Shown here piece after piece: positions 9,010 through 23,536 of a stretch of DNA of 25,260 bases. The position numbers were made by a program, and so were the translations under genes. Origin of the DNA: a virus. The DNA is taken from the IMG/VR virus record IMGVR_UViG_3300044705_000066, positions 1 to 25,260 of that record; one strand, 5' to 3'. The stretch's first letter is position 1. Each line of letters begins with the position of its first letter. The notes below the pieces were generated by a model. It ran no database searches. It saw nothing but the letters and a program-made list of their open reading frames with translations, and was not told the DNA's origin.

Positions 9010-11220
9010 TTAGCTCAAGGTGATCAACGGATCGACATAGAAGGTAGAACTGGCTTTCGCCACCTTGACATAGGCGCGCAGATAGCCCGCCAGTTGCGGC
9101 TGCGGGCTCGATAATGTGGTGGTCAGCAGGAACCGCACACCGGCACGGAATACCGCCGTACCATCGGTCACCGATCCACCATCGATCGCGCCGGCATAAC
9201 CGACCGGCAATGAACCTGACGATGTGCCAGCGGTCGTGCACCAGAACAAGCGACCGCTGTTCGACGAGACCGAGATGACATTACCAAGGCTGTAGGCATG
9301 GCTATTCTGGCGAGCCGAGGCAACGCTATCCCAAGCGCTTGCGCTATCACCGGTCAAAGCGGAACCCGTGGCAAGATTGTTCGATTTGCTCTCGGACTGG
9401 AACGAGGCTTTTGGCGATCCCGAATCGCCCAGGTAAGCGACATCTATCCAGATGTCATCGTTGTTTGGTAATGACGCGCTATTCCAGATACCGTGTAGCG
9501 TGACGGTGACATTGCTTGCGGTGGTCGGGTTCCAGATGGCAATCGGAAATGACTCGAATGGATTGAGCCACAGCACATTGGCGGTGGTCGTGATGTTCCA
9601 GGAAATACCGGTTGTACCGTCAGAGGCACCGTTGGTGCGAATAACGGTGGTTTCTTCTTGCAGAGTACCGGTGTACCAGTACCTACGTTGGACGTAGGTA
9701 CTCGCGGATGACCAGCAGCGAGTAACATCAACAAACGGGCCATTACGGGAAACGGGCGTAGAGGCGATGGTAACCGACGCTCCGAGCTTACAATCGATGA
9801 AATGAAAGTTGCAGCTACAACCGTTGGCGCTGATACCACTACCATTGACGATGGTTGTACCGGAACCCAATGCTGATAAATCAACACCTTCAATCGTGAT
9901 TGTGCCATCGGTGACTGTGGTAAATAAAGCTGTTGGTGCGCTGCCGGCAATAGCGCTGGCGGTGTTACGCCAAATTGTTGTGCCCTGACCCGGTTCGACG
10001 ATATGGGTACTGCCACCAAAATTCCATATGGTATTGACGAGTTCGACTCTAGTCGCGTTGGTGGTTGCGAATTGCAAAGACGACGACCCGGTGGTGTTAA
10101 TTTTAAGCGTACAACTTTCTAGTTTCACCCAGGAACCAGTGGACGTGGCAAAGGCAATATTACCAGTAGTACTGCCCGAACCAGAACTGAACGTAACACC
10201 ATACCAATATGCTGAGTCGCCCTGATTTACGTTCAGCGAAGAAGCCGTACCAACGCCGGAGGCGACGGTTGCGCCGGTTTTGAGGCCCGATGAACTGACC
10301 GGCAACGATAGCGTGTGATCAATTGAATACAAATAATTCGGAGAGGTAACTGTACCTAACGTAGAAAGCCCTAAACCGCTACTCCGCGTTTCGGAATGAT
10401 CGTCAGCGAGGTATATTGTATCCCCTGCTACTGCATAGGTATTAGCGACGACAAACTGGTTGGACAAATACGCATTCGGTGCTGCCCATGTCGAAAAGGA
10501 CGTACCGAGATAAGTCCAGGTAACAGTACCATCCGCCGTCGTATTACCGACCGCACTGGTATTCCACGAAGGCTCTGACCCATTACCAGTCGTACCAGCA
10601 GTTGTGATGATGAAAATGTGCGTGCCGGCGTTATCGGTGATGACATAGCCCAATCCTGGCGCGGTGTTCTTCACCGCCGTCCAGTTTTTGACATTTGTTT
10701 TATCGCCATTGAGTGCCGCCCATCCGGTGCACTCCTGCCAAGTCACCGTGTTATCGGTGGTCTTGGCTCCTCTAGTGGTTGTCCAGTTCGGTTCACTCGT
10801 ACCGGTCGTACCGCCAACGACCGCGATGAAGGCACGGGCATTAACAATTTGGAGACCACCATGCCATGTACCGCTGGCGACCGTCTGGCTGACATTGACG
10901 GTATAAGTGCCGGTGCCGCCGGTGCCGGTGCCAAGGGCAGTCACGATTGCTGTGCTACCAGTCGGGCCTGAGACATATGCCCCCAAATAGATGGTGCCCG
11001 ACGTGACCGCCGTAACCGTTAGTGTGGTGGTGCTCTGGCTGGCGGTGAATACTGCTGAACTCGCACTTTGCCGACGCAATGTACCGGCGGTGATCGAGGC
11101 GCCTGATGACCAACCGGTCATCGCGCTCCACCCCACAGTACCGAGTGTCAGCGCGTTGTTGCCTCCTGTTATATTTGTGTTGATTGTGGAGTTATCGCGG
11201 ACATACCACGCATTAGTCAT
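9010..11220 (-). CDS. Beta-rich tail/adhesin protein (736 aa)
   Basis: The protein is Ser/Thr/Gly-rich with few charged residues, as expected for a beta-helix or beta-sandwich fibre. Residues about 60-120 contain a [16 protein letters not shown]...[12 protein letters not shown] segment that recurs widely in phage fibres. Three copies of a Trp-containing motif are visible: near 137-165 (GTSEPNW...DNTVTW), near 207-240 (GSEPSW...ADGTVTW) and near 662-695 (GSLPVGY...TDGTAVF). These resemble small carbohydrate-binding (CBM5/12-like) modules. No catalytic motif was recognised. It lies between the 195-aa protein and the 646-aa fibre and is probably part of the host-recognition apparatus. The ATG at 11220 has no Shine-Dalgarno sequence; an imperfect hairpin and a TAAATAC motif lie directly upstream. 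Confidence 0.82.
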
Positions 11221-11227
11221 AAAGCAA

Positions 11228-11254
11228 AATACCCGATAGAAACTACCGGGTATT
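11228..11254 (-). terminator. Hairpin with T4 tail, likely intrinsic terminator after the 195-aa gene
   Basis: An inverted repeat pairs AATACCCG with CGGGTATT and TAG with CTA, with one A.C mismatch and an AAA loop (plus-strand view). On the minus strand the 3' arm runs into TTTTG. It lies between the TGA at 11280 and the ATG at 11220. The 5' arm on the minus strand overlaps the TAAATAC motif, so the full hairpin forms only in transcripts coming from upstream. Confidence 0.6.
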
Positions 11255-11257
11255 TAT
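11250..11257 (-). promoter_or_regulatory. TAAATAC motif, candidate phage promoter (site A)
   Basis: Minus-strand reading is CCCGATAAATAC, nearly the same as site C near 17932. With T4 late-promoter geometry, transcription would begin near 11245, about 25 nt before the ATG of the 736-aa gene. Promoter activity is inferred from recurrence in gene-free gaps. Confidence 0.45.
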
Positions 11258-11279
11258 CGGGACGACAGCAAGAGAATCC

Positions 11280-11867
11280 TCAAAGGGAGGCAGTATATGT
11301 CACGTTCAGGGTATCGCCGTTACCCACAGAACGATCACCGCCACTAAACAGCCCCGCAGAATACAAGGTCCCATTAGTGTCGTCCTTAGTATTAACCGCA
11401 CCCGTCGAGGTCACGACAAAGACTCCCTTCGCCGTGCCGGTACCGGTGATCGAGAACACCACCGCCGCGCTGGTGGTAATCGCACCAGCCGAAGCCGCAC
11501 CAAAGCTCATCGTCGGCCGGTTACCGGAATAGGTCGGGGCATTCGTGCCGCCCGCCTCGGTCCAACCGCTGTGCGAACTCATGGTGTCGCCGGATGCGGG
11601 GCCAGTCGTATACGAGACCGCACCAATCAAACCCATATACGGACCGGTTACCGTGTAACCGGAACCCGTCAAATACGTCGTCAACGCGAAGTTCTTGCCG
11701 ACCGTCGTGACCAAGTTGTCGATAACCTCGGACCATTTCTCTTCACCATCCGGGCCGTAGCACACGATATGATAGACACCATGCGCCTCTGCGGCTTCGG
11801 TCATTCCGCCATTGCGTTGGACGGTAGCGGTGGTTACCTCATTCGCATCGGCAACTTCTTGTGTCAT
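11280..11867 (-). CDS. Fibre-associated structural protein (195 aa)
   Basis: I recognise the type but not a named family. It has a polar N-terminus with EAHGVYHIVCYGPDGEEKW, then VTTVGKNFAL, a middle part rich in Gly/Ser/Thr (SGDTMSSHSGWTEAGG), and a C-terminus LFSGGDRSVGNGDTLNVTYTASL. Proteins ending in a 'GD.LNVTY' strand are common next to phage tail-fibre genes and are probably beta-sandwich virion proteins. GGAGG lies about 12 nt before the ATG at 11867; an earlier out-of-frame ATG lies between them. A TAAATAC motif at 11897 precedes it and a hairpin terminator at 11228-11254 follows it, so it may be transcribed as its own unit. Confidence 0.75.
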   Translation of the reverse strand: MTQEVADANEVTTATVQRNGGMTEAAEAHGVYHIVCYGPDGEEKWSEVIDNLVTTVGKNFALTTYLTGSGYTVTGPYMGLIGAVSYTTGPASGDTMSSHSGWTEAGGTNAPTYSGNRPTMSFGAASAGAITTSAAVVFSITGTGTAKGVFVVTSTGAVNTKDDTNGTLYSAGLFSGGDRSVGNGDTLNVTYTASL

Positions 11868-11896
11868 TAAGCATCAAAGCCTCCATTAGGATGAAA

Positions 11897-11904
11897 GTAT
11901 TTAT
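11897..11904 (-). promoter_or_regulatory. TAAATAC motif, candidate phage promoter (site B)
   Basis: Minus-strand reading is CCAATAAATACTTTC, the copy most like the T4 late consensus TATAAATACT. It lies 4 nt after the TAA of the 1168-aa fibre gene. The predicted start near 11892 would give a leader of about 25 nt that carries the GGAGG of the 195-aa gene. Confidence 0.5.
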
Positions 11905-11907
11905 TGG

Positions 11908-14900
11908 TTAGGGTTTGGAGTCGTATATTTTCACATAGTCAATGTTGAACACGAACGGTCCGGTGTGCCCGACCGTGACAATGCTATGCCAGTTATTGCC
12001 GCCGACATAGCTGACCAAATCGTGCGATAGCTGAAGCGCCAACCCGCCGGTCGGGATCGGCTGCGAATAGTAGTTCGGGAACAAGGTCGAACCGGTCGTT
12101 GCAAAGCACGAGAACAGCAATGTGCCGTCGAAATACACCTTCACATAGTTGTTCGGCCGGTAATCGACCCCGAAGATGTGATAGGCGGCCGACAGGTCGA
12201 CACCCAATCGGGTATCGAGCAGATTGATGCCGTTGAACTGGAACGAGAAATTCTGCTGGTAATCGATAATCCCACTCGACGTGACCCCGGTGCCATGCCC
12301 GAACTCGAATCCAAAGTAATTGCTGCCATCGGTCGCGGTATTCGGCTGGAACTGTATTCGTGGATACGCCCCGTAGCGCATGTCGGGGCATTTGAGACGG
12401 GTCTCGACATACCCGCCAGTAACGGGTACGACCATCGTCTTGCCGTTCGAATAGATCGCGCCGCTGACATAATCAAAACCATGGGTGAACGGGTTATAGG
12501 AACCGCTCGCCAAGGTCGCTCCCGCAGTCAGCGGGTTGACGATCAGTTGCAGCGTGCCGTCGACCTCGACCGTGTGCTGCCCCGATGTCGCGACCGAGCC
12601 GGTCAACGCCGGGTACGGGTCCTCGTAGCAGAGCCCCACCGGCAAAGTCGGCGACGCGGTCGTGTTCCCCACCGAGATCGTGACCGGGATCGCGCTGCCT
12701 GTGCTGATCGGGGCCGGCACAATCGTCACGGTGCCGCTGCCAGAGTAGAAGAAAGACGAGCCGGGTACGAGATGCCCGGCGCCGTTATCATTGATCAGAT
12801 AGCCGCCGGAGCCGCCCAGGTAGGTGGCAAGCCCGGTCGTGCTGGCGAGCGAGCAGTTGTTGGTCGAGCCGGTCGTAAACGTCGCGGTGGTGCTCAAGGC
12901 GACTTGCCGGGTGGGGCCGGAATAGGGCGATGGCAGGGCGGCAGAACCGCCGCGCAAGGTGCCGTTGACATTGCCGAGACCGAAATTCCATTTGGTCGTA
13001 TCGAGCACCCATTTCGAGGTCGGCAGGGCATAGACCTGGACATCGCTGAAATACGCTTCGAACGGGCCGGGATGCGCCGGGTCGTAGACTGTTCTCCAAC
13101 CCGAATTGAGCGGGCCGCTGAACCCGCCGGTAAGGAACACCGTATAGCGCGTCGTGGTCGGAATGCTTTGTGTCCAGGTGCCGAGCAGCACATTATCGAA
13201 GTAGATTTTGATCGAGACGCCGGGGATCAATTCGACGCCATACAGGTGATAGTCGGCGGTCAGATCGACACCGGGGGTCTCGGAGAGCACCTGGGTAAGA
13301 CCAGCAGAGGCAGCGACTTGATGCGGGAACAATCCCGACAGCGTGACACTGCTACTGTGAAAGTTCGAGGCGATGCACTGATTGGGCTGGAACCCTTGCG
13401 TGTAACCGGCTTCTAGGAGATCGATTTCGAGCGCGTCACCGTCGAGCGTATCCGGCATCATCCAGATCGCGTTCCACGAACCATACCGACTATCGGCAAT
13501 CTTGGCGCGCACCTGCACAAAGCCGCCGGTTGCGGGCAGGATCATCGGACCGCCGGTCTTGGTCGAGATCGTCGACGATACGGTCGACCAACCGAGATTG
13601 AAAAATGTGCTCGATGTCGTGGCGCAGCAACTAATCTGCAAAACATTGCTGCCGCCCCGCAAATGCAACCCGCTGTCCAGATCACCCGGCGACGTGTTCG
13701 ATAGCCCCGACCACGTATCGAGCGTCCATCCCACCGGGCTGTTGGCCTGACAATACGGGTACGGGTCGAGATACGACATCAGGATCGTCTGGGCGCCGTC
13801 CGGTGAAGTCGAGATGACAACGGCGCGGGCGGTCTGGGTGCTGATCGCGGTATAGGCCAACGTGATCGCCTGCGACCCGGTCGTGCTGTTGGTCGTGCCG
13901 GTGTACGTGAATAGACAGGTCGGCTCGATGGCGACGTTACCATCGTTGATGAAATAGATCGTGCCGTTGACGAGCCCGTTGGCGACACCGCCGGTCCAGG
14001 TCAAGGTCGCGGCGGTCGAACCACTCGTCAGGTTGACATGGAACCCGCCACTGATCGTGACCACCTGCATCCGGTTGCCGGAATATGGGCTCGGCAGATT
14101 ACCACCGCCGGCTTGCGGTGACCCGGTCCGGACGCTGCCATGCCATCCCAGCCACGGCACCCATTTGGTCAAATCGAGATTGGCGGTCGAGAAATGATCC
14201 TCACCGAGTAGATCGGTCGAGGAATAACCAGCGGGCGGGGTCAACCCATTGACCGTACCGCTGGTGTTCGGGAAGTTGTCCTGTATCAGCAATGCCCCAC
14301 CGATGATCGTATCGGTGGCGTTCGTCGCCTCCCTGATCGAGCGAGCCCAATGCGGCACGGCATTCGCGGTCGCGCTGGCATTGCCGGCCTCGGTGATTGA
14401 GGCGACGCGGTGCGCCAGCCCGGTCTCGCTGTCGGATGCGGATGCGCTCTCGTGCACGACATAGCCATCGGCATGCGAGAGTTCGCTGGCCGATGCGGCT
14501 TCGGTGATGCTCTGCGTCGAGGAGACCCCGCCGGTCTTGATATCGACCGCGATGCCCGACTCATGGATCGAGACGACATAGCTCGCGGTGTCGCTGGTCG
14601 TCATCGACGCCGAACCCGCCTCGGTGATGCGGGCGGCTGCCCCGAGCGTTTCGGATTGCGTCGTCGCGGCGGTCGCGGCCTCGGTGATGCTGGAACTTAC
14701 CGCGTTGACATAGGATGCTTCTGCGGCAGAAGCGTTGGCAGCCTCGGTCTCGTTGACATTGAAAATCAAATTATCGCGTTCGGCCGCGACACCACCCTCG
14801 ACCATCGTCTCGGCGATATGGAGCGTCGTGGTTTCGCTATCGAGCAAGCGAAGAGCCTCGGTGACCGACACGGCGCGATGCAAGATCACCGACTCGGTTT

Positions 14901-15414
14901 CGGTCGCTGAGGCGCTCTCGGTCTGCGAGGAGGGCAGGTTATTGATAAAATTGCCATCCCGAGCGGTGCCGCCCTCGGTAATCGAGAGCACAAAACTCGC
15001 TGTGGTGGTGGCCGTAACCGTCGCGCTGGCGGCATCGCTCGCACCCAACAGCTTGTCGAGCGCTGAGGTGATCGTGTCGCTGGCGGCCGATAGCTCGTTA
15101 AAAGTGTCGACCGCATCGAGCGTCGTGGTCGATCCATCATTGGCATTGCCGGCTTCGGAGGAGCCGCCGCCCGGCGCTGATCCGGTCCCCACGATCCCGC
15201 CTCCGCTCGGTGGGGGTGGGGGTGGGGTGATCGGGTATTGGTAATAGACGTTGGTGCCGGTCTGGTGCGGGCGCCACCACGGATCGGTGCTGAACGGGCC
15301 ATCCGGCGGTCCGATCGCCCAGCCACGGTTCGACAGCCCGTCATCGTAGACCGCGCGGGTGGTCGGCTCATCCACTTCGGGAAGCGGAAATAATATCTCG
15401 ATAAAACCGCCCAT
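11908..15414 (-). CDS. Giant tail fibre/tailspike with repeat shaft and two GH16-like domains (1168 aa)
   Basis: Residues 1-60 are an N-terminal adaptor shared with the 59-aa protein encoded just upstream. A Pro/Gly linker with six prolines spans 63-86. About twelve repeats of 19-20 residues (SITEAxxASxT type) span 145-372. Two concanavalin-fold, GH16-like domains follow at about 400-797 and 800-1168. Domain 1 has GGFVQVRAKI, YGSWNAIWMMPD and EIDLLE at 663-668, which fits the GH16 active-site pattern ExDxxE, then YHLYGVELIPG and KIYFDNVLLG. Domain 2 keeps the frame (GGYVETRLKCPDMRYGAYPRIQF, YHIFGVDYRP, KVYFDGTLL) but has FGFEFG in place of the catalytic motif. The protein probably binds and cleaves a beta-glycan on the host surface; the exact substrate cannot be told. 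No Shine-Dalgarno is seen before the ATG, so coupling to the 59-aa gene, whose TGA ends 7 nt upstream, is likely. Confidence 0.88.
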   Translation of the reverse strand: MGGFIEILFPLPEVDEPTTRAVYDDGLSNRGWAIGPPDGPFSTDPWWRPHQTGTNVYYQYPITPPPPPPSGGGIVGTGSAPGGGSSEAGNANDGSTTTLDAVDTFNELSAASDTITSALDKLLGASDAASATVTATTTASFVLSITEGGTARDGNFINNLPSSQTESASATETESVILHRAVSVTEALRLLDSETTTLHIAETMVEGGVAAERDNLIFNVNETEAANASAAEASYVNAVSSSITEAATAATTQSETLGAAARITEAGSASMTTSDTASYVVSIHESGIAVDIKTGGVSSTQSITEAASASELSHADGYVVHESASASDSETGLAHRVASITEAGNASATANAVPHWARSIREATNATDTIIGGALLIQDNFPNTSGTVNGLTPPAGYSSTDLLGEDHFSTANLDLTKWVPWLGWHGSVRTGSPQAGGGNLPSPYSGNRMQVVTISGGFHVNLTSGSTAATLTWTGGVANGLVNGTIYFINDGNVAIEPTCLFTYTGTTNSTTGSQAITLAYTAISTQTARAVVISTSPDGAQTILMSYLDPYPYCQANSPVGWTLDTWSGLSNTSPGDLDSGLHLRGGSNVLQISCCATTSSTFFNLGWSTVSSTISTKTGGPMILPATGGFVQVRAKIADSRYGSWNAIWMMPDTLDGDALEIDLLEAGYTQGFQPNQCIASNFHSSSVTLSGLFPHQVAASAGLTQVLSETPGVDLTADYHLYGVELIPGVSIKIYFDNVLLGTWTQSIPTTTRYTVFLTGGFSGPLNSGWRTVYDPAHPGPFEAYFSDVQVYALPTSKWVLDTTKWNFGLGNVNGTLRGGSAALPSPYSGPTRQVALSTTATFTTGSTNNCSLASTTGLATYLGGSGGYLINDNGAGHLVPGSSFFYSGSGTVTIVPAPISTGSAIPVTISVGNTTASPTLPVGLCYEDPYPALTGSVATSGQHTVEVDGTLQLIVNPLTAGATLASGSYNPFTHGFDYVSGAIYSNGKTMVVPVTGGYVETRLKCPDMRYGAYPRIQFQPNTATDGSNYFGFEFGHGTGVTSSGIIDYQQNFSFQFNGINLLDTRLGVDLSAAYHIFGVDYRPNNYVKVYFDGTLLFSCFATTGSTLFPNYYSQPIPTGGLALQLSHDLVSYVGGNNWHSIVTVGHTGPFVFNIDYVKIYDSKP
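14299..14982 (-). repeat. Degenerate 57-63 bp repeats encoding fibre shaft
   Basis: About twelve units encode repeats of 19-20 residues in the 1168-aa fibre. Repeating positions of the Glu in (S/R)I(T/H/R)E fall near residues 146, 184, 243, 263, 283, 303, 340 and 360, with weaker units between. Units are more diverged than those at 8554-8883 but share the E(A/G)xxA(S/T)xT core. Confidence 0.85.
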
Positions 15415-15421
15415 TAAAAAA

Positions 15422-15601
15422 TCACACGGGTGGGGTCAGATCATCCATGCCGATCTGGTGCGGCGAGGCGTCGGTAAATGTTCTGCCGGAAACGGGGCCG
15501 ACCGCATAACCCGCGTTACTCAAGCCATCGACATAGACAGCGCGGGTGGTCGGCTCGTCGACTTCCGTCAACGGAAAGATGATTTCGATCTGTGCGCTCA
15601 T
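15422..15601 (-). CDS. Stand-alone fibre N-terminal adaptor domain (59 aa)
   Basis: This short gene translates to a 59-residue protein beginning MSAQIEIIFPLTEVDEPTTR and ending DDLTPPV. It is clearly paralogous to residues 1-60 of the 1168-aa fibre encoded next (shared IEI.FPL.EVDEPTTRAVY.DGLSN.G.A.GP and PHQ.G). A strong AAGGAGG lies 9 nt before its ATG, so it is well translated. The TGA is followed by the fibre ATG after 7 nt. Because the shared part is the probable virion-attachment end, this protein may occupy the same docking site on the tail, prime docking, or be the remains of an exchanged fibre gene. It is too short to be detected by usual length limits. Confidence 0.85.
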   Translation of the reverse strand: MSAQIEIIFPLTEVDEPTTRAVYVDGLSNAGYAVGPVSGRTFTDASPHQIGMDDLTPPV

Positions 15602-15617
15602 AATGCGCCGCCTCCTT

Positions 15618-17924
15618 TTATGTAGCTGGCTGGTTGGGGTCGAACGCCGGCAGCGGCGCGTCGCTGGTGAGCATCACCAACTGGTCGAGCGAGCCATCCT
15701 GATTGGCCGCCATCGTCACCGACATGACGTTGCGGTTATCGGGCAGCGGATGCTTGGACCAGCCAGCGAAGACCGGTTCGGGCTGGAAGTTGTTGAACCG
15801 CCGATAGCTGCACGAGATCAGTTTGCCGGTCGATGTGCAGCACCACACGATCGGCGCCGACTCTTCTTGGTAGGCAACCTCGATGATCCCATCGCTGGTC
15901 AAATGCTTCGAGTACTCGTTCAGATGCCGGCCAATAAAGCGCCGCGCCCAGATGTCGACAATAAACTCGATGACCCGGCGACCAAAGGCTTGCACGAATA
16001 GCAGCGCACCACCGACCCGGATCGCCTCGATCGAGGCGCTGCCGAACCGAGTGACCTTTTTGACGAGCGCATCGGTCGGGGTGAGGCTGCCACCGTTTTC
16101 ATTCGACTGGATCACGTACTCGCCGGAGATCGAGCCGGCGACGAGACCCTCGTGGTGCGAATGCAGATAGTTGACAAGCTCCTGTTCCGAAGCATTGAGG
16201 ACCAGCGAAATGCCGTGATTATCGTAGACCTGCCCCTGCGCATTTGTCGGGCACCAGTAGACCTGATGCGTCGACACCGTCGCACCGGTCAATGGCTGCG
16301 ACCCGAGCGTACCGGAGAGCCCCTGCGACGTGCCCCAGGTGGCCTGGGATGATGTCGCCTGCACCACGACATTGCTGGTGCTGCTCGTTACGGTCGATGT
16401 CGGGTAGAAAGCGGGGTCTTGCAGGTTCGGTAGGGTCATGAAGCCCCCCGTGGAGCCCCCATCGCTCATGCACGCATCGATGCGGTTGGGGAGTGCACCA
16501 GCGAGCCACAGACGACCCTGATAGAATGCGCCGCAACTCGGATATTGCCCGGTCGTGTAGACGCCTAGCTGCCACGTGTCGACCTGTGCGCCGTCCGGTG
16601 CGGCGAGCCCGGTCGCGAGCAATGAGTTGCCGACGATCGTGTCGCCGTCCAATCCGCCGGTCAGACCGATCGGGTTGTGCCATTCGATCAAGCACTGTGA
16701 CTGAAACGCCAAGCTGACATCATTGTCCTTGGTATACTTGATGATCCCATAGCCCCAGCGACCGAATGAGCTATCGATGTACCAGTCGGAATTGACGCCG
16801 GGCACCGATGTACTATGGCTCACCTTGTCGATATTGAGCGCCCAGAAGTTCCCTTGCCATGTCGCTCGCGGCGGGCCGTTGCCGGCGTTGGTGTAGTCGC
16901 TATCTTTCTGGTAGGGTTGCGGCTGGCACCAGATGCGGATCATCCGGCCAATGTCGGATGCTTGGAAATTGTAAGCGCCATCGGCGACATCAAATAACGA
17001 TAGCCCGGTATCCTGATCCTCCTGAAAAACCGTTCCATGACTATTACCAGTTTGACTTGATCCCGGTAAAGGATCGAGGTACGGTCCGTCGAAGAATTCT
17101 GCCGTCCCAAGTGTAAACCATGGAGCATCTGTCGAGACTGCACCCGGTGGGGCGGGGATGACTTGCGTTAGTCGTTGCGGGAAGTGGTTTTTATTGAGGA
17201 AGTACGCCGAGTCGCCGGTTTGAATGACGCGCACGCGGCGCAGTTCGTCGAGGCTGGTATACGGGAGTTCGAACCGGGCGGCGTGCGCCGCGAACGAGTT
17301 GCCGTATTCGGCGACATAGAACCCGGTGGTGCTGCCATTGATCGCAACACCGGTCGCGGCGTCATATAGCTCGAACGTGACATCGGTCAGCTTGTGGATC
17401 AGAAATTGTCTGTTAGACCAGCCCGGCCCATTAGCTAAAGCAAGGCTCGGATCGATAAAAATCTGGACGATATCGGAATCGAACCAGCCGACCGTACCAT
17501 TCATCTGGGTTCCCGGTGCGGAATTGATCGTCAGCACCGCTGGTGTTGTATTCGACAGGTTGACGATCTTCACGTAACTGTCGCACAGCAGCGTGAGATC
17601 GTCGGAATAGACCTTGCCAAATTGCTGCACCCAGAACCGCAGAAACGCCTGCTCGTAATGCGTGCTGTAGGTCATCTCCAGAACACAAGGCTTATGGTTC
17701 GGCAGCCAGAACGTGCGGACGACCCCGAGATCACCGAGATTGGTGTCACCGAGCCGGCGCCGACCGGAGCGGCGGGTCCACGCGCCCTCTTCGAGCGGGA
17801 TGCCGTTTTCCGAAGTATTGAGAGCGGTCTTATACCTGGGATCGTCGATGCGACCTTGAGCAAAACTGCTCCATTCACCGCCAAGGAAGTTGCTTTGTTG
17901 AAATGCCGAGCCTGACTCTGTCAT
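15618..17924 (-). CDS. Tail tubular protein B / nozzle (768 aa)
   Basis: The length is close to T7 gp12 (794 aa), and the N-terminus has the pattern usual for this family: QQSNFLGGEWSSFAQGRIDDPRYKTALNTSEN followed by EEGAWTRRSGRRRLG and VRTFWLPN. Further on are many Trp/Tyr/Gly-rich beta segments and the GFMTLPN, QATSSQATWGTSQGLSGTLGSQP and IEFIVDIWARRFIGRHLNEYSKHL segments. It stands directly after two adaptor genes and before the fibres, the place of the nozzle gene in T7-like phages. It forms the end of the short tail through which DNA leaves. The ATG at 17924 lies 5 nt after a TAAATA motif and has no Shine-Dalgarno sequence nearby. Confidence 0.9.
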   Translation of the reverse strand: MTESGSAFQQSNFLGGEWSSFAQGRIDDPRYKTALNTSENGIPLEEGAWTRRSGRRRLGDTNLGDLGVVRTFWLPNHKPCVLEMTYSTHYEQAFLRFWVQQFGKVYSDDLTLLCDSYVKIVNLSNTTPAVLTINSAPGTQMNGTVGWFDSDIVQIFIDPSLALANGPGWSNRQFLIHKLTDVTFELYDAATGVAINGSTTGFYVAEYGNSFAAHAARFELPYTSLDELRRVRVIQTGDSAYFLNKNHFPQRLTQVIPAPPGAVSTDAPWFTLGTAEFFDGPYLDPLPGSSQTGNSHGTVFQEDQDTGLSLFDVADGAYNFQASDIGRMIRIWCQPQPYQKDSDYTNAGNGPPRATWQGNFWALNIDKVSHSTSVPGVNSDWYIDSSFGRWGYGIIKYTKDNDVSLAFQSQCLIEWHNPIGLTGGLDGDTIVGNSLLATGLAAPDGAQVDTWQLGVYTTGQYPSCGAFYQGRLWLAGALPNRIDACMSDGGSTGGFMTLPNLQDPAFYPTSTVTSSTSNVVVQATSSQATWGTSQGLSGTLGSQPLTGATVSTHQVYWCPTNAQGQVYDNHGISLVLNASEQELVNYLHSHHEGLVAGSISGEYVIQSNENGGSLTPTDALVKKVTRFGSASIEAIRVGGALLFVQAFGRRVIEFIVDIWARRFIGRHLNEYSKHLTSDGIIEVAYQEESAPIVWCCTSTGKLISCSYRRFNNFQPEPVFAGWSKHPLPDNRNVMSVTMAANQDGSLDQLVMLTSDAPLPAFDPNQPAT

Positions 17925-17928
17925 GCTC

Positions 17929-17936
17929 GTATTTAT
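17929..17936 (-). promoter_or_regulatory. TAAATAC motif, candidate promoter for leaderless nozzle mRNA (site C)
   Basis: Minus-strand reading is CCCGATAAATACGAGCATG. Exactly five bases lie between the last A of TAAATA and the start codon. In T4 late-promoter geometry this would place the first transcribed base on the A of ATG. Site E has the same spacing and a nearly identical downstream sequence. Confidence 0.5.
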
Positions 17937-17969
17937 CGGGGGGCGTGGCTCTCCTTGGGTTGGCTGGCG

Positions 17970-18059
17970 TTAGTAGTGATCGATCGAGAACAGCAAAATC
18001 ACAATTATCGCCAACACTGCACCGAAACCAAGCCAAACCAAGATGACATCGAAGGTCAT
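17970..18059 (-). CDS. 29-aa single-pass membrane micro-protein
   Basis: The ATG follows the TGA of the adaptor gene after one base (TGAGATG), so translation is probably by re-initiation. The product starts MTFDVILVWLGFGAVL and ends SIDHY. Residues 4-25 are almost wholly hydrophobic and would span a membrane once, with an acidic/polar tail. It does not match a family I know. Its place between adaptor and nozzle genes is odd for a lysis gene; it could be a small holin-like or inner-membrane factor, or a virion peptide. The conserved start-stop coupling and strong hydrophobic pattern support it as real, but 29 codons is too few to be sure. Confidence 0.6.
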   Translation of the reverse strand: MTFDVILVWLGFGAVLAIIVILLFSIDHY

Positions 18060-18060
18060 C

Positions 18061-19209
18061 TCAGTATCGAGCTACTATGAAATCATCCTCTACTGGATCG
18101 ATCGGGCCACGCTCGATGCCGTCGATCGTTCTCGCTTCGGTAATTGTCCGCGCATACTCCTCGCGGGCATCGCTGATGATCGAGACGAAATGCTCGGCAT
18201 CGGCAAGACGCGGTGCCAACTCGATCGCCAGCCGATGCGCCAACCCAATCTGGAATAAGCTATCCATTTCCGGCACGGTCTGAATGTCGGCGACGAACCG
18301 CAGCATCAGCGGTTTCGCATCCCACGAGACGATGTAATTCCCCTCGTATAGCCAGTCGCGCGTCAGGTTACCGGGGGGCGATCCCAAATATGGGTTGACC
18401 CGCGCCTTCGGGTTGCCCGGTGCCGGGCGCAAAAACCCAGCCGGCAGACGGAATGCGTTGAGGGTATGGGTGTCGGCTGCCGGTCCGGCACCCAATGGGT
18501 AATTGATGTTGAGCGGGGTGAGCACCGCCGAGGTGATCACCCGCCAGCTATTACTCACCAGCGGCGAGGTGATCGTCGTGGTCCATTGCGTCGGGCTGGT
18601 ATCGGGCTCGTTATTATGGTTCAGGTTGATGCGGCTCTGGTAATTGGTGCCGCCGAAGCTGACCACTTGCCCGCTGTTGTAGATGACCTTGCTATCCCAA
18701 GGATCGACCCCGGCCGGATCGTTGGCATTGGCGTTGACCAGCGAGCGGTACACGGTATAGGTACCGTCGTTGGGGGTCTTGTAGACCAATTCCCCATCGA
18801 AGTAGCTGACCGTGTCGTCGAACAGATCGACGGTGACCGGGCCGAAATACGAGTCCCAGATCAGGGTTCCCGATGCCGGCACGATGTCGGGCTCATTGCC
18901 GGTCGTGCTGGTCATGGCGACCCAAAGCTGGTTGTTGTAGGTGACGATATCCCCGGCGATGTACGCGGTGCCGGTCGCCCATGCCGGCGCGGTCAGGAGC
19001 AGCGTCGTGGTATCGATCGCCCGCAGCACGACGCGGCGGGTCGAGAACACCCACAGCGCACGGCGTAGTTCGGCAAGTCGAAGCGCATCGTACACACGAT
19101 TGCACTCGACGGCTTGGACCGTGTTATCGGCGAAGGAAAAGATCGCGGGTTGGCGAAGAACCGATAACGCTTTATTGCAGATATCGACGGGGGTCCGGAG
19201 GGCGGTCAT
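18061..19209 (-). CDS. Adaptor / tail tubular protein A, second paralog (382 aa)
   Basis: The N-terminus (VDICNKALSVLRQPAIFSF...ALRLAELRRALWVFSTRR) and C-terminus (LMLRFVADIQ...LAHRLAIELAPRL...DPVEDDFIVARY) fit the gp11-like head-tail adaptor family of podoviruses. Two inserted small beta modules, residues about 76-121 (AWATGTAYIAGDIVTYNNQLW) and 168-210 (WDSKVIYNSGQVVSFGGTNYQ), resemble CBM5/12 carbohydrate-binding repeats. The protein is a paralog of the 349-aa protein encoded immediately upstream, with the same order of parts. GGGAGG lies about 10 nt before the ATG. It probably forms the ring between portal and nozzle. Confidence 0.87.
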   Translation of the reverse strand: MTALRTPVDICNKALSVLRQPAIFSFADNTVQAVECNRVYDALRLAELRRALWVFSTRRVVLRAIDTTTLLLTAPAWATGTAYIAGDIVTYNNQLWVAMTSTTGNEPDIVPASGTLIWDSYFGPVTVDLFDDTVSYFDGELVYKTPNDGTYTVYRSLVNANANDPAGVDPWDSKVIYNSGQVVSFGGTNYQSRINLNHNNEPDTSPTQWTTTITSPLVSNSWRVITSAVLTPLNINYPLGAGPAADTHTLNAFRLPAGFLRPAPGNPKARVNPYLGSPPGNLTRDWLYEGNYIVSWDAKPLMLRFVADIQTVPEMDSLFQIGLAHRLAIELAPRLADAEHFVSIISDAREEYARTITEARTIDGIERGPIDPVEDDFIVARY

Positions 19210-19224
19210 GCATCACACCCTCCC

Positions 19225-20274
19225 TTAACCTTCCGGCGATCCCGCGTTTCTTTGCCCGCCGGACGGAACATTGTCGACGACGCCCGCCGGGCCGCGTGTG
19301 AGGATGTAGTCATCTTCGAGCGGCTCGGTAGAACCGGTCTCAATCAGGTTGACGACAACCGCGTCGTGAAGGAATTTCTGATAGGCCGCCGCTATACCCT
19401 GCCTCTTCTGCTCACTCTGGGTCAAAGGTTCACAAATCGAGTAGGCGATACGGGCTGCCAAGGCTTCGCACAGCAATGGATCGAGCATTGTCACGTCCGA
19501 TACATCAGCGACGTATCTCAAAAGGATTGGGTCCGTCTGTGCGCTGACAATAATATTGCCTTCGAGTTCGTAGTCATTGTACCGCAGACCGGCGCTGACG
19601 ACGTTCGTTGCTGTAGACCCTACTTTCGGATCAGGATTGGTTATGCGCAAGTAATATAGCGGCAAAGGAAAAACATTGCGTATTTTGCCATTGATCGTGA
19701 CATCGGAACCAAGCGGCATGTAGAACGGAATGTTGAATGCCGTCGCACCGGTTTGAGCCACCCAATAGGTTCCATTAGGTGGTGTATGATTGAGGTTCCC
19801 GTTGACCTTGCTCAGATACCACGTGGCATCTCCGACATTCCAGATTACCTCACCAGAATAGTACGTAACGGTGGTGTCGAAATCCGGTCCGTAAACGGTG
19901 CCGAACCACTGTTCCCAATACTGCGGCTGCCCCGCAACATAGGTCGACGGGGCATTGGTGGTCGATGCGGTGTTGTCCACCTTGCAAATCCAGTAGACGC
20001 CCGCCGTGTCTTGCACGATTTGGCCCTGGATATAACTGGTTCCCGATACCCAGGCGGGTGCGACAAACCGGTTGGTATTGGTATCCCAAGGGCGAAGAAC
20101 CGAGCGGCGGATGCAGCAGCGCCAAACCGACCGACGCAATTCTGCTTGCCGCAAGGTGGTCCAGGCGAAACCACCTTCGGCGGCCTGCTTGGAGTTGTCT
20201 TGTAACGTCGAGATGCGGGTCGCCCCGACATACTGGAGAGCGCGATTTACGACATCAGTAGCAGTGGTATACAA
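19225..20274 (-). CDS. Adaptor / tail tubular protein A, first paralog (349 aa)
   Basis: It shares with the next gene the N-terminal pattern DVVNRALQYVGATRISTLQD...LRQAELRRSVWRCCIRRSVLR and the C-terminal ILLRYVADVSDV...LAARIAYSICEPLTQSEQ...EPLEDDYILTRGP, as expected for gp11-like adaptors. Two CBM5/12-like inserts are visible at about 74-125 (AWVSGTSYIQGQIVQDTAGVYW) and 131-175 (FDTTVTYYSGEVIWNVGDATWY). The start codon is TTG, with GAGGAGG about 11 nt upstream; no better start lies in frame. Two adaptors in tandem suggest a mixed ring, two stacked rings, or a surface-exposed decoration. Confidence 0.87.
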   Translation of the reverse strand: MYTTATDVVNRALQYVGATRISTLQDNSKQAAEGGFAWTTLRQAELRRSVWRCCIRRSVLRPWDTNTNRFVAPAWVSGTSYIQGQIVQDTAGVYWICKVDNTASTTNAPSTYVAGQPQYWEQWFGTVYGPDFDTTVTYYSGEVIWNVGDATWYLSKVNGNLNHTPPNGTYWVAQTGATAFNIPFYMPLGSDVTINGKIRNVFPLPLYYLRITNPDPKVGSTATNVVSAGLRYNDYELEGNIIVSAQTDPILLRYVADVSDVTMLDPLLCEALAARIAYSICEPLTQSEQKRQGIAAAYQKFLHDAVVVNLIETGSTEPLEDDYILTRGPAGVVDNVPSGGQRNAGSPEG

Positions 20275-20293
20275 CTAGATCGGCGCCTCCTCA

Positions 20294-20572
20294 TTATTCG
20301 CTTGGGATACGGACGATCTGCACGTATACAGCGGTAGCGCTCGACACTGCGAGCTTGTACTTGCCCGGCGCAAGGTTGACCGTGGTGTAGCCGTTTGCGG
20401 CGAATGCCGTCGCGGCCGTCACATAGGTCGAGGCATCACTCGCCAACTTTTGCAATGTGACGGTGCCCCAATTACTACCGATATAGTCGATGCCGTACAG
20501 CCCACCGGCGAGCGGAAAGGCCGCCGTATCGGCAGAAATGTTTGATGCAGAAAATGAGTCACCAGAACGCAT
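20294..20572 (-). CDS. Small beta-type structural protein (92 aa)
   Basis: I do not recognise a family. The sequence is poor in charge, with LAGGLYGIDYIGSNWGTVTLQKLASDASTYV and APGKYKLAVSSATAVYVQIVRIP, a pattern of short beta strands typical of head-decoration or neck proteins. Such small 'GVTLQ' proteins are common downstream of phage capsid genes. It starts 5 nt after the stop of the ATT-start gene, without a clear Shine-Dalgarno sequence, and lies 19 nt before the first adaptor gene. Confidence 0.72.
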   Translation of the reverse strand: MRSGDSFSASNISADTAAFPLAGGLYGIDYIGSNWGTVTLQKLASDASTYVTAATAFAANGYTTVNLAPGKYKLAVSSATAVYVQIVRIPSE

Positions 20573-20577
20573 GCGCT

Positions 20578-20799
20578 TTAACCAATAAGAGTACCGGCCG
20601 CGATGATTTGATCGTTCGCGGTTGCGAACAAATGCTCCATCTTCTCGCAGAACTCGCGGACCTGCTGATATGTTACTGTCGCGTCGGTGACGCGCAGTTC
20701 GAGCGGACTGGCCGATGTCGCGCTGGTCGCAACCGTCACATCACCGGGATCGATATCGAAGGCATTGCCTAGCTTGATCGAGTAGAAAGTGTCAGAAAT
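20578..20799 (-). CDS. Small structural protein with ATT start codon (73 aa)
   Basis: The frame between two clear genes encodes a 73-residue product beginning (I/M)SDTFYSIKLGNAFDIDPGD and ending ANDQIIAAGTLIG. The composition is that of a soluble phage protein, and it fills an otherwise empty gap of 240 nt. There is no ATG, GTG or TTG between the upstream in-frame TGA and the coding start; the only later ATG lies some 52 codons in. A strong AAGGGGG stands 8 nt before ATT, so ATT (or the adjacent ACG) is the likely initiation codon. ATT is a rare start, known from infC, where it limits expression. The Shine-Dalgarno overlaps the TAA of the preceding gene. An alternative is a +1 frameshift near that stop, fusing it to the 118-aa protein. 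Confidence 0.75.
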   Translation of the reverse strand: MSDTFYSIKLGNAFDIDPGDVTVATSATSASPLELRVTDATVTYQQVREFCEKMEHLFATANDQIIAAGTLIG

Positions 20800-20812
20800 C
20801 GTAGTAGCCCCC

Positions 20813-21169
20813 TTAGCTCAAATCTTTTGCGCCGTTGACGGCTTGCATAATTGCGTTGAGACATGCCCGCAGCATGTTCTTCGATACGACGGTGCTCGGG
20901 TTGTAGCTGACGACGACATCGCCAGAGACCGCAGCATTCAGATCAACGGTTCCAATGTCGGTCTTCAACGTCGCGAAATCGGTCTGTATCTGGGTGACCA
21001 AGCCCAACGCGGTGCTGTCACCAGAGATCGTCGCATTGGCGAGCGCCGCTGTAATATCGGCATCGACGGTCGACTCGTCGGTCGAGATCAACGCGGCGGT
21101 CACCCCGCCAGAGGTGTGAGCCGCTGACGGGGAATACGCATTGACCGTGGCTTGTAGCGTTATCGCCAT
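20813..21169 (-). CDS. Small structural protein (118 aa)
   Basis: No family recognised. The product is Ala/Thr/Ser-rich with few basic residues. It has a polar N-terminus (YSPSAAHTSGGVTAALISTDES), two segments with helical heptad-like spacing (LGLVTQIQTDFATLKTDIGTVDL), and a C-terminus (NMLRACLNAIMQAVNGAKDLS). It lies 5 nt after the stop of the 176-aa gene and is followed at once by the ATT-start gene. Genes at this place often encode head-decoration or head-tail joining proteins, but nothing in the sequence proves that. Confidence 0.72.
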   Translation of the reverse strand: MAITLQATVNAYSPSAAHTSGGVTAALISTDESTVDADITAALANATISGDSTALGLVTQIQTDFATLKTDIGTVDLNAAVSGDVVVSYNPSTVVSKNMLRACLNAIMQAVNGAKDLS

Positions 21170-21174
21170 ACCAC

Positions 21175-21705
21175 TTACACCGTGTAGCTAACTTCGGCGT
21201 AGGTGACCGGCGCACCGCTGGTCGTGGCGGTTGTCTTCAACAGGATGTCAAAGTACCCACCAGGATCGTTGGTGTAACCCATGACCTGCCACATACGCTG
21301 GTTGCGCTGTGCCGAAGTCAAGTTCTTGGCATAGTCGACTAGACCGGCAGTCTTCAAGTCAACCGCAGCACCGAAAATTTTGTTATCGGCGCTGGCGATT
21401 TGGGGAATAGTGCCCTGATACTGCACCGGCGTCCCGTCGACTTTCGAGTCGCTCCAGGCCACGTCGATATCACACGTCCAGGTTGTAACTGTACCATCCA
21501 CACCAAGCCATAGGTGTTTTACTACCGCGTGCGACGGGAACCGGCAGATGCGGTACGTCGAGCCGCTGGTCTTGCCGGTGGTTGCCGTGATGCTGTCGCT
21601 GACGCTGCGCATCACACCCGGACCGCCTTCACCCGGTGGGTTGAAGACGATTGGGGTAGCGTCGAGGTTGGTTACGCTGGCGGAAGAGAGTGCCTCTGTT
21701 GTCAT
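21175..21705 (-). CDS. Post-capsid structural protein (176 aa)
   Basis: No named family recognised. The N-terminus (MTTEALSSASVTNLDATPIV) leads into SDSITATTGKTSGSTYRICRFPSHAVVKHLWLGVD, a beta-rich core with WTCDIDVAWSD, and a C-terminus QVMGYTNDPGGYFDILLKTTATT.....YAEVSYTV. This arrangement recurs in small structural proteins encoded just after podovirus capsid genes. AGGA lies about 13 nt before the ATG at 21705, a long spacing, with an ATGTAA start-stop between. A strong hairpin separates it from the capsid gene. Confidence 0.75.
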   Translation of the reverse strand: MTTEALSSASVTNLDATPIVFNPPGEGGPGVMRSVSDSITATTGKTSGSTYRICRFPSHAVVKHLWLGVDGTVTTWTCDIDVAWSDSKVDGTPVQYQGTIPQIASADNKIFGAAVDLKTAGLVDYAKNLTSAQRNQRMWQVMGYTNDPGGYFDILLKTTATTSGAPVTYAEVSYTV

Positions 21706-21742
21706 TATTACATGTGTCCTACACTGTTAGTTGTTATTAGTT

Positions 21743-21770
21743 TTGCGAAGCCCATCGAGGGGCTTCGCAA
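21743..21770 (-). terminator. Strong hairpin after the capsid gene
   Basis: An 11-bp perfect stem (TTGCGAAGCCC with GGGCTTCGCAA) encloses a 6-nt loop 14 nt after the capsid stop. On the minus strand it is followed by AACTAATAAC, not a U-tract, so it is not a textbook intrinsic terminator. It could be an inefficient terminator, as T7 has after gene 10, or a stabiliser of the capsid mRNA 3' end. Confidence 0.45.
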
Positions 21771-21783
21771 TATTGTAAGTTAC

Positions 21784-22737
21784 TTAGATGTTGTCGTTAC
21801 CGACCGAGTCGTTACCGGCATCAATTTCGATTACGCGGCCCGGCTCCAGACGAGTGGCCCCGAACATCGTGTTGGAATAGATTTGTACCGGGTGACCCGA
21901 GATATCCTTACGGATGGAAACGTCGGTGAACAAATCACGCCACAGGCCGAGCGCCAGACCCGAAGGTACAAACGCGAAGCACTGGCGAATACTGGAGGCG
22001 ACCGGCAGACGCTCGGAGACAATGATATTGAAACCAAGGAACTGCTGGAGCCGACCATCAACCAAAACCGGGCGGTCGTTGAACTCATCCGAGACTACTT
22101 GAGTCTGGGAAAGAAGGTCCATTTCCTGCTGTGACCCGATCACCAAGTACAAAGGCTCGGCGTCCAAATCCACATGTAAATGCCTGAATAGCTGCCTGCA
22201 TTTGAGCAATTTGCGGACCGTCATACCAATCGTGGTCGACCCGTTGCCGTACGTGTCGGCAATCGTCAGACCGGTATTGGAGCCAGTCGCGGTGTTTTGC
22301 GCGTTCGCCCAGGTCTCGGTCGTAAACCCACCCGGATCAGTACCAATGGTGGAGCTACCAAAGACCGCACTAATCAGCGCGTCGTCCCATGCACGACCAA
22401 TAGAAGCCGCAACGTCCTTGATGTACGCCGACTGCGGCGAAATCATTGTTTGCAGTTGCTCATAGGTATCCACCAAAAAGTTATTCTCTTTGGGGGACGG
22501 GAAGACCCAGCGACGCATGAACTGCACGTCGGTGCGACCGAGCGGCGAGAATGGTGCCGGCGGGGCTTCCATGTTGAATGCGCTGGTGTATTGGATCAGC
22601 GAATGCGCCTTACCAACACAGGCTTCTTCACGAACCTTGCCGCGAAGCTTGGACTGCATCTGCTGCAAACGCAGGTCGAGCAATGTTGAATATTGGACAG
22701 TGTATAACTGTGGAAGAAAATCTGAACCAAATGCCAT
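21784..22737 (-). CDS. Major capsid protein (317 aa)
   Basis: Length and composition fit a phage major capsid protein of the podovirus type. The N-terminus (MAFGSDFLPQLYTVQYSTLLDLRLQQMQSKL) is helical. It is followed by TDVQFMRRWVFPSP, a long middle part with SAYIKDVAASIGRAWDDALISAVFG, then LYLVIGSQQEMDLLSQTQVV and FLGFNIIVSERLPV, and a C-terminal beta domain (SGLALGLWRDLFTDVSIRKDISGHPVQIYSNTMFGATRLEPGRVIEID). The last part is the typical strand-rich P/A-domain end of HK97-like capsids. It follows the scaffold-like gene and precedes small structural genes. GAGG lies 10 nt before the ATG, below a hairpin with an A-rich loop, which fits the high expression expected of this gene. Confidence 0.9.
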   Translation of the reverse strand: MAFGSDFLPQLYTVQYSTLLDLRLQQMQSKLRGKVREEACVGKAHSLIQYTSAFNMEAPPAPFSPLGRTDVQFMRRWVFPSPKENNFLVDTYEQLQTMISPQSAYIKDVAASIGRAWDDALISAVFGSSTIGTDPGGFTTETWANAQNTATGSNTGLTIADTYGNGSTTIGMTVRKLLKCRQLFRHLHVDLDAEPLYLVIGSQQEMDLLSQTQVVSDEFNDRPVLVDGRLQQFLGFNIIVSERLPVASSIRQCFAFVPSGLALGLWRDLFTDVSIRKDISGHPVQIYSNTMFGATRLEPGRVIEIDAGNDSVGNDNI

Positions 22738-22752
22738 GGTTCCGCTACCTCA

Positions 22753-22779
22753 CAAAGCGTTTTTTTTGTTTTTGCTTTG
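22753..22779 (-). promoter_or_regulatory. A-rich loop hairpin directly upstream of capsid Shine-Dalgarno
   Basis: Minus-strand CAAAGC pairs with GCTTTG around a 15-nt loop made of A runs broken by C. The GAGG Shine-Dalgarno starts 1 nt after the stem. Unpaired A-rich RNA next to a Shine-Dalgarno is a known translation enhancer and ribosomal protein S1 binding feature, so this may raise capsid synthesis. The function is inferred. Confidence 0.45.
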
Positions 22780-22874
22780 GCTTATCCACGCCGTGTGAGG
22801 GCGACCGGGGCCTTGTAGGTTCTGCTGTATGCCGCCCTTATGGGTTATGGTTCAGCGTCACCTCTCGCGCGCCG

Positions 22875-22881
22875 GTATTTA
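22875..22881 (-). promoter_or_regulatory. TAAATAC motif, candidate capsid promoter (site D)
   Basis: Minus-strand reading is TTCGCCTAAATACCGGCGC. It lies 20 nt after the stop of the 59-aa gene and about 138 nt before the capsid ATG, so it would give the capsid message a long leader. No other gene can be found in the 164-nt gap 22738-22901. Confidence 0.45.
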
Positions 22882-22901
22882 GGCGAAATGAAGGGGTGGG
22901 G

Positions 22902-23081
22902 TTACTTGCCCCGGAATTTGGCAAATGTCAGCGCAAGGCGGGCACGCTTGCCGGTCGTACCCTTGTCGTTCTTATGCTCGCGGGCGAACTCCATCGGGGT
23001 TTGCCCTGCTGCGTTTGCCTGTGCGGTCAGTGCTCCGGGTTTGGAAACCGCGTTTTGCATCCATTTTGATTTCGCTGCCAT
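22902..23081 (-). CDS. Small basic phage protein (59 aa)
   Basis: The product begins MAAKSKWMQNAVSKPGALTA and continues QANAAGQTPMEFAREHKNDKGTTGKRARLALTFAKFRGK. The pattern 'KW...A..KPGAL...A...G......A.....KGTTG.RARLA.T..K' is one I recognise from many short phage proteins of unknown role. It is strongly basic at the C-terminus and may bind nucleic acid. It starts five bases after a TAAATA motif with no Shine-Dalgarno; the upstream bases are a terminator U-tract. It sits alone between that terminator and the capsid leader. Confidence 0.82.
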   Translation of the reverse strand: MAAKSKWMQNAVSKPGALTAQANAAGQTPMEFAREHKNDKGTTGKRARLALTFAKFRGK

Positions 23082-23085
23082 GGTC

Positions 23086-23092
23086 GTATTTA
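23086..23092 (-). promoter_or_regulatory. TAAATAC motif, candidate promoter for leaderless 59-aa gene (site E)
   Basis: Minus-strand reading is TTTTTCTAAATACGACCATG. It directly follows the U-tract of the terminator at 23094-23131 and ends four bases before the ATG. Bases and spacing match site C (TAAATACGAGCATG) except for one position. Confidence 0.5.
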
Positions 23093-23093
23093 G

Positions 23094-23131
23094 AAAAATA
23101 AAACCCCGCTTCGCTTACCCGAAGCGGGGTT
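23094..23131 (-). terminator. Intrinsic terminator (12-bp stem, U-rich tail)
   Basis: A perfect 12-bp stem (AACCCCGCTTCG with CGAAGCGGGGTT), a 6-nt loop and TTTTATTTTT on the minus strand. It ends transcription coming from the scaffold side before the 59-aa gene. Confidence 0.9.
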
Positions 23132-23190
23132 AGGGCTCGGCTGGTTTACCCAGCGCCATCCACCAGTTCTGGCCTGTATCGAGGTCGAAC
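23094..23190 (-). ncRNA. Candidate ~95-nt small RNA between site F and terminator
   Basis: If site F (23195-23201) is a promoter, a transcript would begin near 23190 and end at the intrinsic terminator, giving about 95 nt without a gene. Besides the terminator stem it can form a hairpin GCTGG-GTAAA-CCAGC near 23139-23153. The only ATG gives a nine-codon frame lacking a spaced Shine-Dalgarno. Its existence rests wholly on the promoter reading. Confidence 0.3.
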
Positions 23191-23194
23191 GAAC

Positions 23195-23201
23195 CTATTT
23201 A
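23195..23201 (-). promoter_or_regulatory. TAAATAG motif, candidate promoter (site F)
   Basis: Minus-strand reading is GTTTTTCTAAATAGGTTCG, directly after a terminator U-tract. The stretch TTTTTCTAAATA is identical to that at site E. Confidence 0.4.
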
Positions 23202-23202
23202 G

Positions 23203-23242
23203 AAAAACGCCGCCCCCAGGTCTACGAGTGGGAGCGGCGTTT
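23203..23242 (-). terminator. Intrinsic terminator (9+4 bp stem, T5 tail)
   Basis: AAACGCCGC pairs with GCGGCGTTT; after one mismatch CCCA pairs with TGGG around a 10-nt loop. On the minus strand the stem runs into TTTTTC. With the terminator 70 nt further on, it closes the scaffold transcription unit. Confidence 0.85.
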
Positions 23243-23536
23243 CGGCTGTTGTGGTAGCTAGGCTGACTGCGGGCCTGCCACCACCAAAATTATTTACAGT
23301 ATAATCGTCCTACCGGCGTGCCCCTATCGCGTTGCAGGGGTTTGTGAGCACGCTTTCCCGCCCTATCCAGTCTACGACTTATTCCGTCTTACTCTGGCAT
23401 CCAGCCCTCTCCAGGAGAGCTACGGTAGTAACAACAATGAAGACCCCAACACGAAGCACCACCAACTCCAGTCGGCGTTGCCACAACAGGGTCTTGAGGC
23501 TGCGGAGTTGAAATCGCTGTACATCACAACTCTCGT
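23243..23536 (-). other. Gene-free 294-nt stretch with possible RNA structure
   Basis: No convincing gene or tRNA is seen on either strand. Short inverted repeats occur: CCCCT with AGGGG near 23321-23340 enclosed by GCGTG and CACGC (23316-23353), CTCTC with GAGAG near 23407-23419, and ATTAT with ATAAT at 23289-23305. The last includes a TATAAT on the plus strand without a matching -35. This may be a long 3' untranslated region of the scaffold transcript. Confidence 0.4.

Follow-up and report, generated by a model that had tools for sequence, protein, structure and literature searches.

A recurring TAAATAC-type motif was analyzed in a stretch of viral DNA of 25,260 nucleotides (IMG/VR virus record IMGVR_UViG_3300044705_000066), the whole of which is called the window here. 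We conclude that (A/C)TAAATA is probably the core of a phage-specific promoter lacking a -35 element, read through a factor that the phage would encode outside this fragment. The call of a predicted promoter is well supported, its T4-late-like form is supported, and a phage-encoded reader is likely. The copies form a set of defined placement and strand, which is absent from the relatives of the phage and recurs in unrelated phages. The best reading is a predicted promoter set that would work in the manner of T4 late promoters, yet it should not be classed as a set of T4 late promoters, because the sites lack TA at -13/-12 and an AT-rich stretch downstream. The window is a linear record with a GC content of 58%, in which every called gene lies on the minus strand; it covers the structural region and is without terminase, replication genes and early region.

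All six minus-strand sites of the original prediction (sites A to F in the table) were found at their positions. The minus strand of the window holds TAAATAC 5 times and the plus strand not once, in agreement with the claim that the motif is confined to the coding strand, and TAAATA occurs 8 times on the minus strand (approximately 1.8 expected) and once on the plus strand. With genes re-called, the motif again occupied 5 of the 6 gaps of at least 40 nucleotides (nt), the exception being the 78-nt gap after the capsid gene. The comparison of gaps with coding sequence, which had been proposed as a check, placed 7 of the 8 TAAATA copies and all 5 TAAATAC copies in gaps, the gap total used being 965 nt, of which 121 nt are actually covered by an open reading frame (ORF) of 77 amino acids (aa). 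Each gap was then shuffled separately with its dinucleotides kept, and any word, rather than a TAAATA word, was allowed to score; the probability of any 7-mer reaching 5 copies was 0.0045, and that of any 6-mer reaching 7 copies was 0.002. The 12-mers held in common, CCCGATAAATAC in sites A and C and TTTTTCTAAATA in sites E and F, were likewise recovered. Two copies had been missed, a seventh one in a gap (TGTAAATAA, 23291-23296; site G) and one inside a gene at 7229. The bases at -13/-12 in sites A to G are GA, AA, GA, CC, TC, TC and TG, with A or C at -12 in 6 of the 7. Sigma-70 sites (TTGACA and TATAAT, 16–18 nt apart) were not found at the gap sites of the window; 4 promoter-like sequences were counted, as compared with 9.1 in shuffles. 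A sigma-28 promoter (GCCGATAA) was considered since sites A and C read CCCGATAA, and was rejected because sites B, D, E and F do not.

Site C reads TAAATACGAGCATG and site E reads TAAATACGACCATG, with ATG exactly 5 nt after TAAATA in both. The late promoter box of T4-family phages is numbered from -13 to -6 (PMC2988020), and with this numbering +1 would be the A of the ATG at both sites. The mRNAs from sites C and E would therefore be leaderless, assuming the T4 spacing, with +1 six bases after TAAATA.

Table. Sites, hairpins and genes of the window (predicted leaders and +1 positions calculated at the T4 spacing)
Feature	Coordinates	Strand	Predicted leader	Remarks
Site A, ATAAATAC	11250..11257	-	25 nt	Gap site ahead of the 736-aa gene; shares bases with a terminator-like hairpin
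Site B, ATAAATAC	11897..11904	-	25 nt	Before the 195-aa gene; followed by GGAGG and ATG
Site C, ATAAATAC	17929..17936	-	0 nt	Tail tubular protein B-like gene has its ATG 5 nt on; +1 would be 17924
Site D, CTAAATAC	22875..22882	-	133 nt	Before the capsid-gene leader
Site E, CTAAATAC	23086..23093	-	0 nt	Directly after a terminator-like hairpin; 59-aa gene has its ATG 5 nt on; +1 would be 23081
Site F, CTAAATAG	23195..23202	-		Directly after a T-tract hairpin; no gene before the next terminator
Site G, TGTAAATAA	23291..23296	-		Weak extra site
Terminator-like hairpin, 13 pairs, T-rich tail	11227..11255	-		Site A overlaps its 5′ arm
Terminator-like hairpin, 12 pairs, T tract	23102..23131	-		Just upstream of site E
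Hairpin followed by TTTTT	23204..23243 (ends approximate)	-		Just upstream of site F
Capsid-gene leader hairpin, CCCCGG...GGATAAGCC	22779..22810	-		Common to relatives; at -73 in the window
736-aa probable virion gene	9010..11220	-		3′ of site A
195-aa gene (phrog_8123)	11280..11867	-		3′ of site B
Tail tubular protein B-like gene	15618..17924	-		3′ of site C
Major capsid protein gene	21784..22737	-		3′ of site D
59-aa gene (MAAKSKWMQ...)	22902..23081	-		3′ of site E; present in relatives

The strongest internal argument came from the region upstream of the capsid gene. The capsid protein of the window shares approximately 30–37% identity with those of HTVC010P-type pelagiphages and spring-water podoviruses, and approximately 45–53% with those of many metagenomic podovirus contigs, the longest of which are approximately 42–47 kb; single-protein scans with the capsid and tail proteins gave no close relatives. 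In 58 of 141 loci from relatives, TTGACA is found upstream of the capsid gene, commonly with a -10-like box, as compared with 3 in the reverse complement. On the 3′ side of TTGACA, a leader hairpin of the form CCCCS...GGAYAMGG was detected in 78 of 128 distinct leaders (0.3% expected) and in none of the reverse complements, lying approximately 40–100 nt before the capsid gene in the relatives (e.g., L009, L103 and L104). The window has no TTGACA before this gene; site D, with TAAATAC, is found upstream of the common hairpin instead. Judged from this arrangement, TAAATAC appears to be a promoter that replaced the sigma-70 promoter at the capsid gene. Sharing of the motif throughout the clade was rejected, as the relatives examined showed no TAAATA enrichment; a de novo search of six long relatives (44–47 kb) gave no comparable recurrent gap word. 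The hairpin had no match in Rfam and is a candidate for a new cis-regulatory RNA; the aligned set was picked by pattern, and covariation is therefore not fairly judged from it. Neither the window nor any of nine relatives contained an RNA known to Rfam.

At sites C and E the motif leads directly into a start codon, which made extended patterns scannable, and two such patterns were scanned across IMG/VR. The majority of the matches did not resemble promoters and were set aside because no gene of useful length followed the ATG or because the match was in-frame coding sequence. Some of the others belonged to T4-type phages. Contig G031 has T4-type sheath, tube and baseplate genes, a gp55 homologue (E value 1e-29), (A/C)TAAATA 6 times forward and 2 times in the opposite direction, and the layout of site E, terminator-GATAAATACGAACATG. 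Two of 24 records tested, and only these, also had gp55 (G038, 1.5e-62; G040, 1e-57), many of the others being short fragments. The extended motif thus does recover T4-type phages.

The same motif set was found in siphophages. G041 (L257, 18.5 kb) and G062 (L262/L263, 35.7 kb) both come under IMG/VR genome 2922434878; the former carries genes for a tape measure protein, a tail terminator, a head-tail adaptor and a major head protein, and the latter genes for a small terminase, a serine recombinase, a primase-polymerase and a DUF4055 protein. (A/C)TAAATA occurs 18 times on the late strand of G062 and once on the opposite strand, with ATG or GTG following 4–6 nt on in approximately two-thirds of the cases. 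The strand bias was 9 to 0 in G041 and 12 to 0 in G063 (L268), and metagenomic relatives of G062 retain the set (12/0, 6/0 and 4/0). No conserved upstream column corresponding to a -35 element was observed in the 27 sites of G041 and G062 or in the pooled 40 sites. The layout of site A recurs in G062 and G063 (TAAATACCTCGCAAC...TGCGAGG..., with ATG at 27–29 nt). ATG stands exactly 5 nt after TAAATA at 2 of 4 sites in the window, 3 of 7 in G031 (one of them itself a search match) and 2 of 4 in G041 (the queried site filtered out), as compared with 0 of 57 in stretches of T4, phiM12, S-PM2 and Slickus01 and 0–2 per phage for permuted words. Synechococcus phage Yong-M4-211 and Dinoroseobacter phage R5C, which have terminases related to that of the siphophage, had no copies in the stretches read.

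A third kind of carrier was a prophage of Reyranella massiliensis 521, an alphaproteobacterium, whose capsid protein (23% identity) and two virion genes match those of the window. The 5.8-Mb chromosome of this strain contains 14 copies of CTAAATAG, 7 of which lie inside 24 kb of prophage sequence, and this clustering indicates that the motif set is specific to the prophage. The prophage has 15 copies of TAAATA in 30.8 kb, where 2.5 were expected; one of them is followed at 5 nt by the ATG of a short gene adjoining the tail tubular genes. The prophage (L270-L272, 1,540,001-1,600,000) is compact, of approximately 30 kb and podovirus-type; it has structural and terminase-like genes, whose number is not matched by the few evident genes for replication, and could be a degraded element or resemble a gene-transfer agent.

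T4 late promoters depend on gp55, gp33 and gp45 and have the consensus TATAAATA. The sites of the window resemble them in having a TAAATA core at -11 to -6, if the T4 numbering is assumed, in lacking a -35 element, and in that each transcription unit of the structural region has a single box. They differ in that -13/-12 is not TA, so that the full TATAAATA is not present, in the absence of AT-rich sequence downstream, in that 2 of 5 sites predict a leaderless mRNA, and in belonging to a podovirus-type phage for which gp55 was not found. The late promoters of S-PM2 (NATAAATA; PMC2984593) and Aeh1 ((a/g)CTAAATA; PMC2988020), large myoviruses encoding gp55, also have A or C ahead of TAAATA, like the sites of the window, G041 and G062. 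T4-late transcription has been described as unique to T4-related phages (PMC2988020), and our literature search, within its reach, revealed no TAAATAC or TAAATA phage late promoter described outside the T4 group. Podoviruses phiEco32 and 7-11 use a -10-only promoter read by a phage sigma factor of their own, much as is proposed here; their motif, tAATGTATAtA (PMC4281155), is different, and their sigma factor was covered here solely through PF04542, no search by name being made. HTVC010P-type podoviruses and their soil and freshwater relatives share capsid and tail genes and the capsid-gene leader hairpin with the window, whereas in the 44–47-kb relatives examined the capsid promoters are of sigma-70 type and TAAATA is not enriched.

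Several observations weigh against the proposed promoter and its phage-encoded reader. The window has just 5 to 7 copies of the motif; the bases after the box (CCCGGTAG, CTTTCATC, CGAGCATG, CCGGCGCG and CGACCATG) are not AT-rich, unlike those of T4; and relatives with a capsid protein approximately 50% identical lack the TAAATA motif. Searches with gp55 (phrog_234) and sigma-70 region 2 (PF04542) gave no match in approximately 25 long records of the capsid clade and four named phages, nor in G041 and G062, and phrog_234, the only one of the two searched in G063, gave none there. A five-protein gp55 profile had no match in the ORFs of the window, the Reyranella stretch, G041, G062 or G063, and blastp (E values up to 1e-4) revealed no candidate reader gene common to the Reyranella prophage and the siphophages. 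The Reyranella prophage is possibly degraded and the siphophage records need not be complete, so that the absence of gp55 is suggestive and not proof. The T7-type RNA polymerase domain (PF00940) was absent from records of 30 relatives, a search in which the control genomes were silent too, and only 6–7 bases of the motif are conserved. GafA, a phage-derived late regulator, has only tentative sigma-like regions (PMC9638019), and this and other activators of alphaproteobacterial gene-transfer agents illustrate that a reader of this kind can be missed by gp55 searches; no TAAATA motif was seen in the passages covered, and no search for these activators was made here. The original prediction is thus supported in part. 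A T4-late-like promoter set in a podovirus-type phage is well supported by the position of the sites, the comparison with relatives and the independent phages; neither a gp55-like sigma factor nor a divergent RNA polymerase was found in the above searches of the clade and of carriers other than T4-type phages, and a phage-encoded factor outside the window is still likely.

Several other explanations were considered. The reader may be a gp55-type sigma factor that came from a T4-type phage and whose gene lies in the part of the genome that the fragment lacks. Core and lack of a -35 element are as in T4-family late promoters, Aeh1 included (PMC2988020), and T4-type contigs with the same sites (G031, G038 and G040) encode gp55; as gp55 searches were negative for relatives of the clade, for the siphophage records of 35.7 kb and 43 kb and for the ORFs of the Reyranella prophage stretch, we regard this origin as possible but doubtful. 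Alternatively, a host sigma factor might read the sites, the phages exploiting an existing class of host promoters. The siphophages and the podovirus-type prophage do carry the motif without a recognizable phage sigma factor. However, with half of the Reyranella copies of CTAAATAG in 24 kb of prophage, broad use by the host is not seen, which makes a host sigma factor unlikely as the reader; in addition, related podoviruses use TTGACA promoters, and the T that ends the sigma-70 -10 box is missing from TAAATA. Use by the small phages of a late holoenzyme supplied by a T4-type phage in the same cell is very improbable: capsid synthesis would depend on co-infection, and a chromosomal prophage and siphophages with a recombinase have kept the motif as well, even though T4-type phages with the same extended site occur in the same collection.

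The motif might instead act in RNA, as a site of processing, stability or translation, or as an operator. Its nearness to start codons in two cases and its strand bias would fit an RNA site too, but sites E and F follow terminators directly, site A overlaps one and site D lies 133 nt from the start codon; distances to ATG range from 5 to more than 130 nt, and gp55-bearing T4-type phages have the same sites. An action of this kind is therefore improbable. Chance is the least probable explanation. AT-rich words are expected in gaps, which are AT-richer than genes, and the copies in the window are few; this is outweighed by the shuffles with the motif left free (P values of 0.002–0.005), the total strand bias, the fixed 5 nt to ATG at two sites and the equal sets in unrelated phages.

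For the preferred reading, a phage-specific promoter without a -35 element, the following working is proposed. Host core RNA polymerase with a phage-encoded specificity factor would read (A/C)TAAATA and begin transcription approximately six bases downstream of the box, so that the sites would divide the structural region into separate transcription units. A terminator would be followed immediately by a promoter at sites E and F, and at site A the promoter would overlap a terminator; a transcript begun at A would miss part of the 5′ arm of the hairpin. Site D would give a long leader before the capsid gene, and sites C and E would give leaderless mRNAs.

Going beyond the original prediction, the predicted class spans a podovirus, siphoviruses and a prophage, and leaderless mRNAs are predicted for many of its sites. 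We tentatively suggest, at somewhat less than an even chance, that small podoviruses, together with temperate siphophages, have a T4-late-like, largely leaderless promoter class whose reader is not recognizable as gp55 or sigma-70, with an alphaproteobacterium as the host of at least one of these phages; that reader would be either a gp55 of extreme divergence or a factor of a new kind. The same promoter form outside the T4 group would mean that gp55-type sigma factors move from one phage group to another, unrelated one or that a different factor has come to use the site by convergence. The carriers form a concrete set of genomes for finding the factor, including the cultured host R. massiliensis 521, and their leaderless late mRNAs are predicted to the base.

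The 459-nt gap at 23078-23536 folds better than its shuffles (z = -3.4). Two units of box and hairpin, each approximately 90–100 nt, lie between sites G, F and E and could give small RNAs; site F, with no gene before the next terminator, could drive a short RNA.

Some features of the neighboring genes were also observed. Two adjacent genes (18061-19209 and 19225-20274) each gave a match to phrog_394, the family of tail tubular protein A; in the relatives examined there is apparently a single such gene. The homologue of tail tubular protein B is divided: its main part is the gene 3′ of site C, and its C-terminal domain is found twice, approximately 8 kb away, at 6428-7066 and at the C-terminus of the gene at 7063-9003. 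A 59-aa protein (15422-15601) and a 1168-aa protein (11908-15414) have a near-identical N-terminus, IEI-FPL-EVDEPTTRAVY-DGLSN, as though one of the two were a truncated copy.

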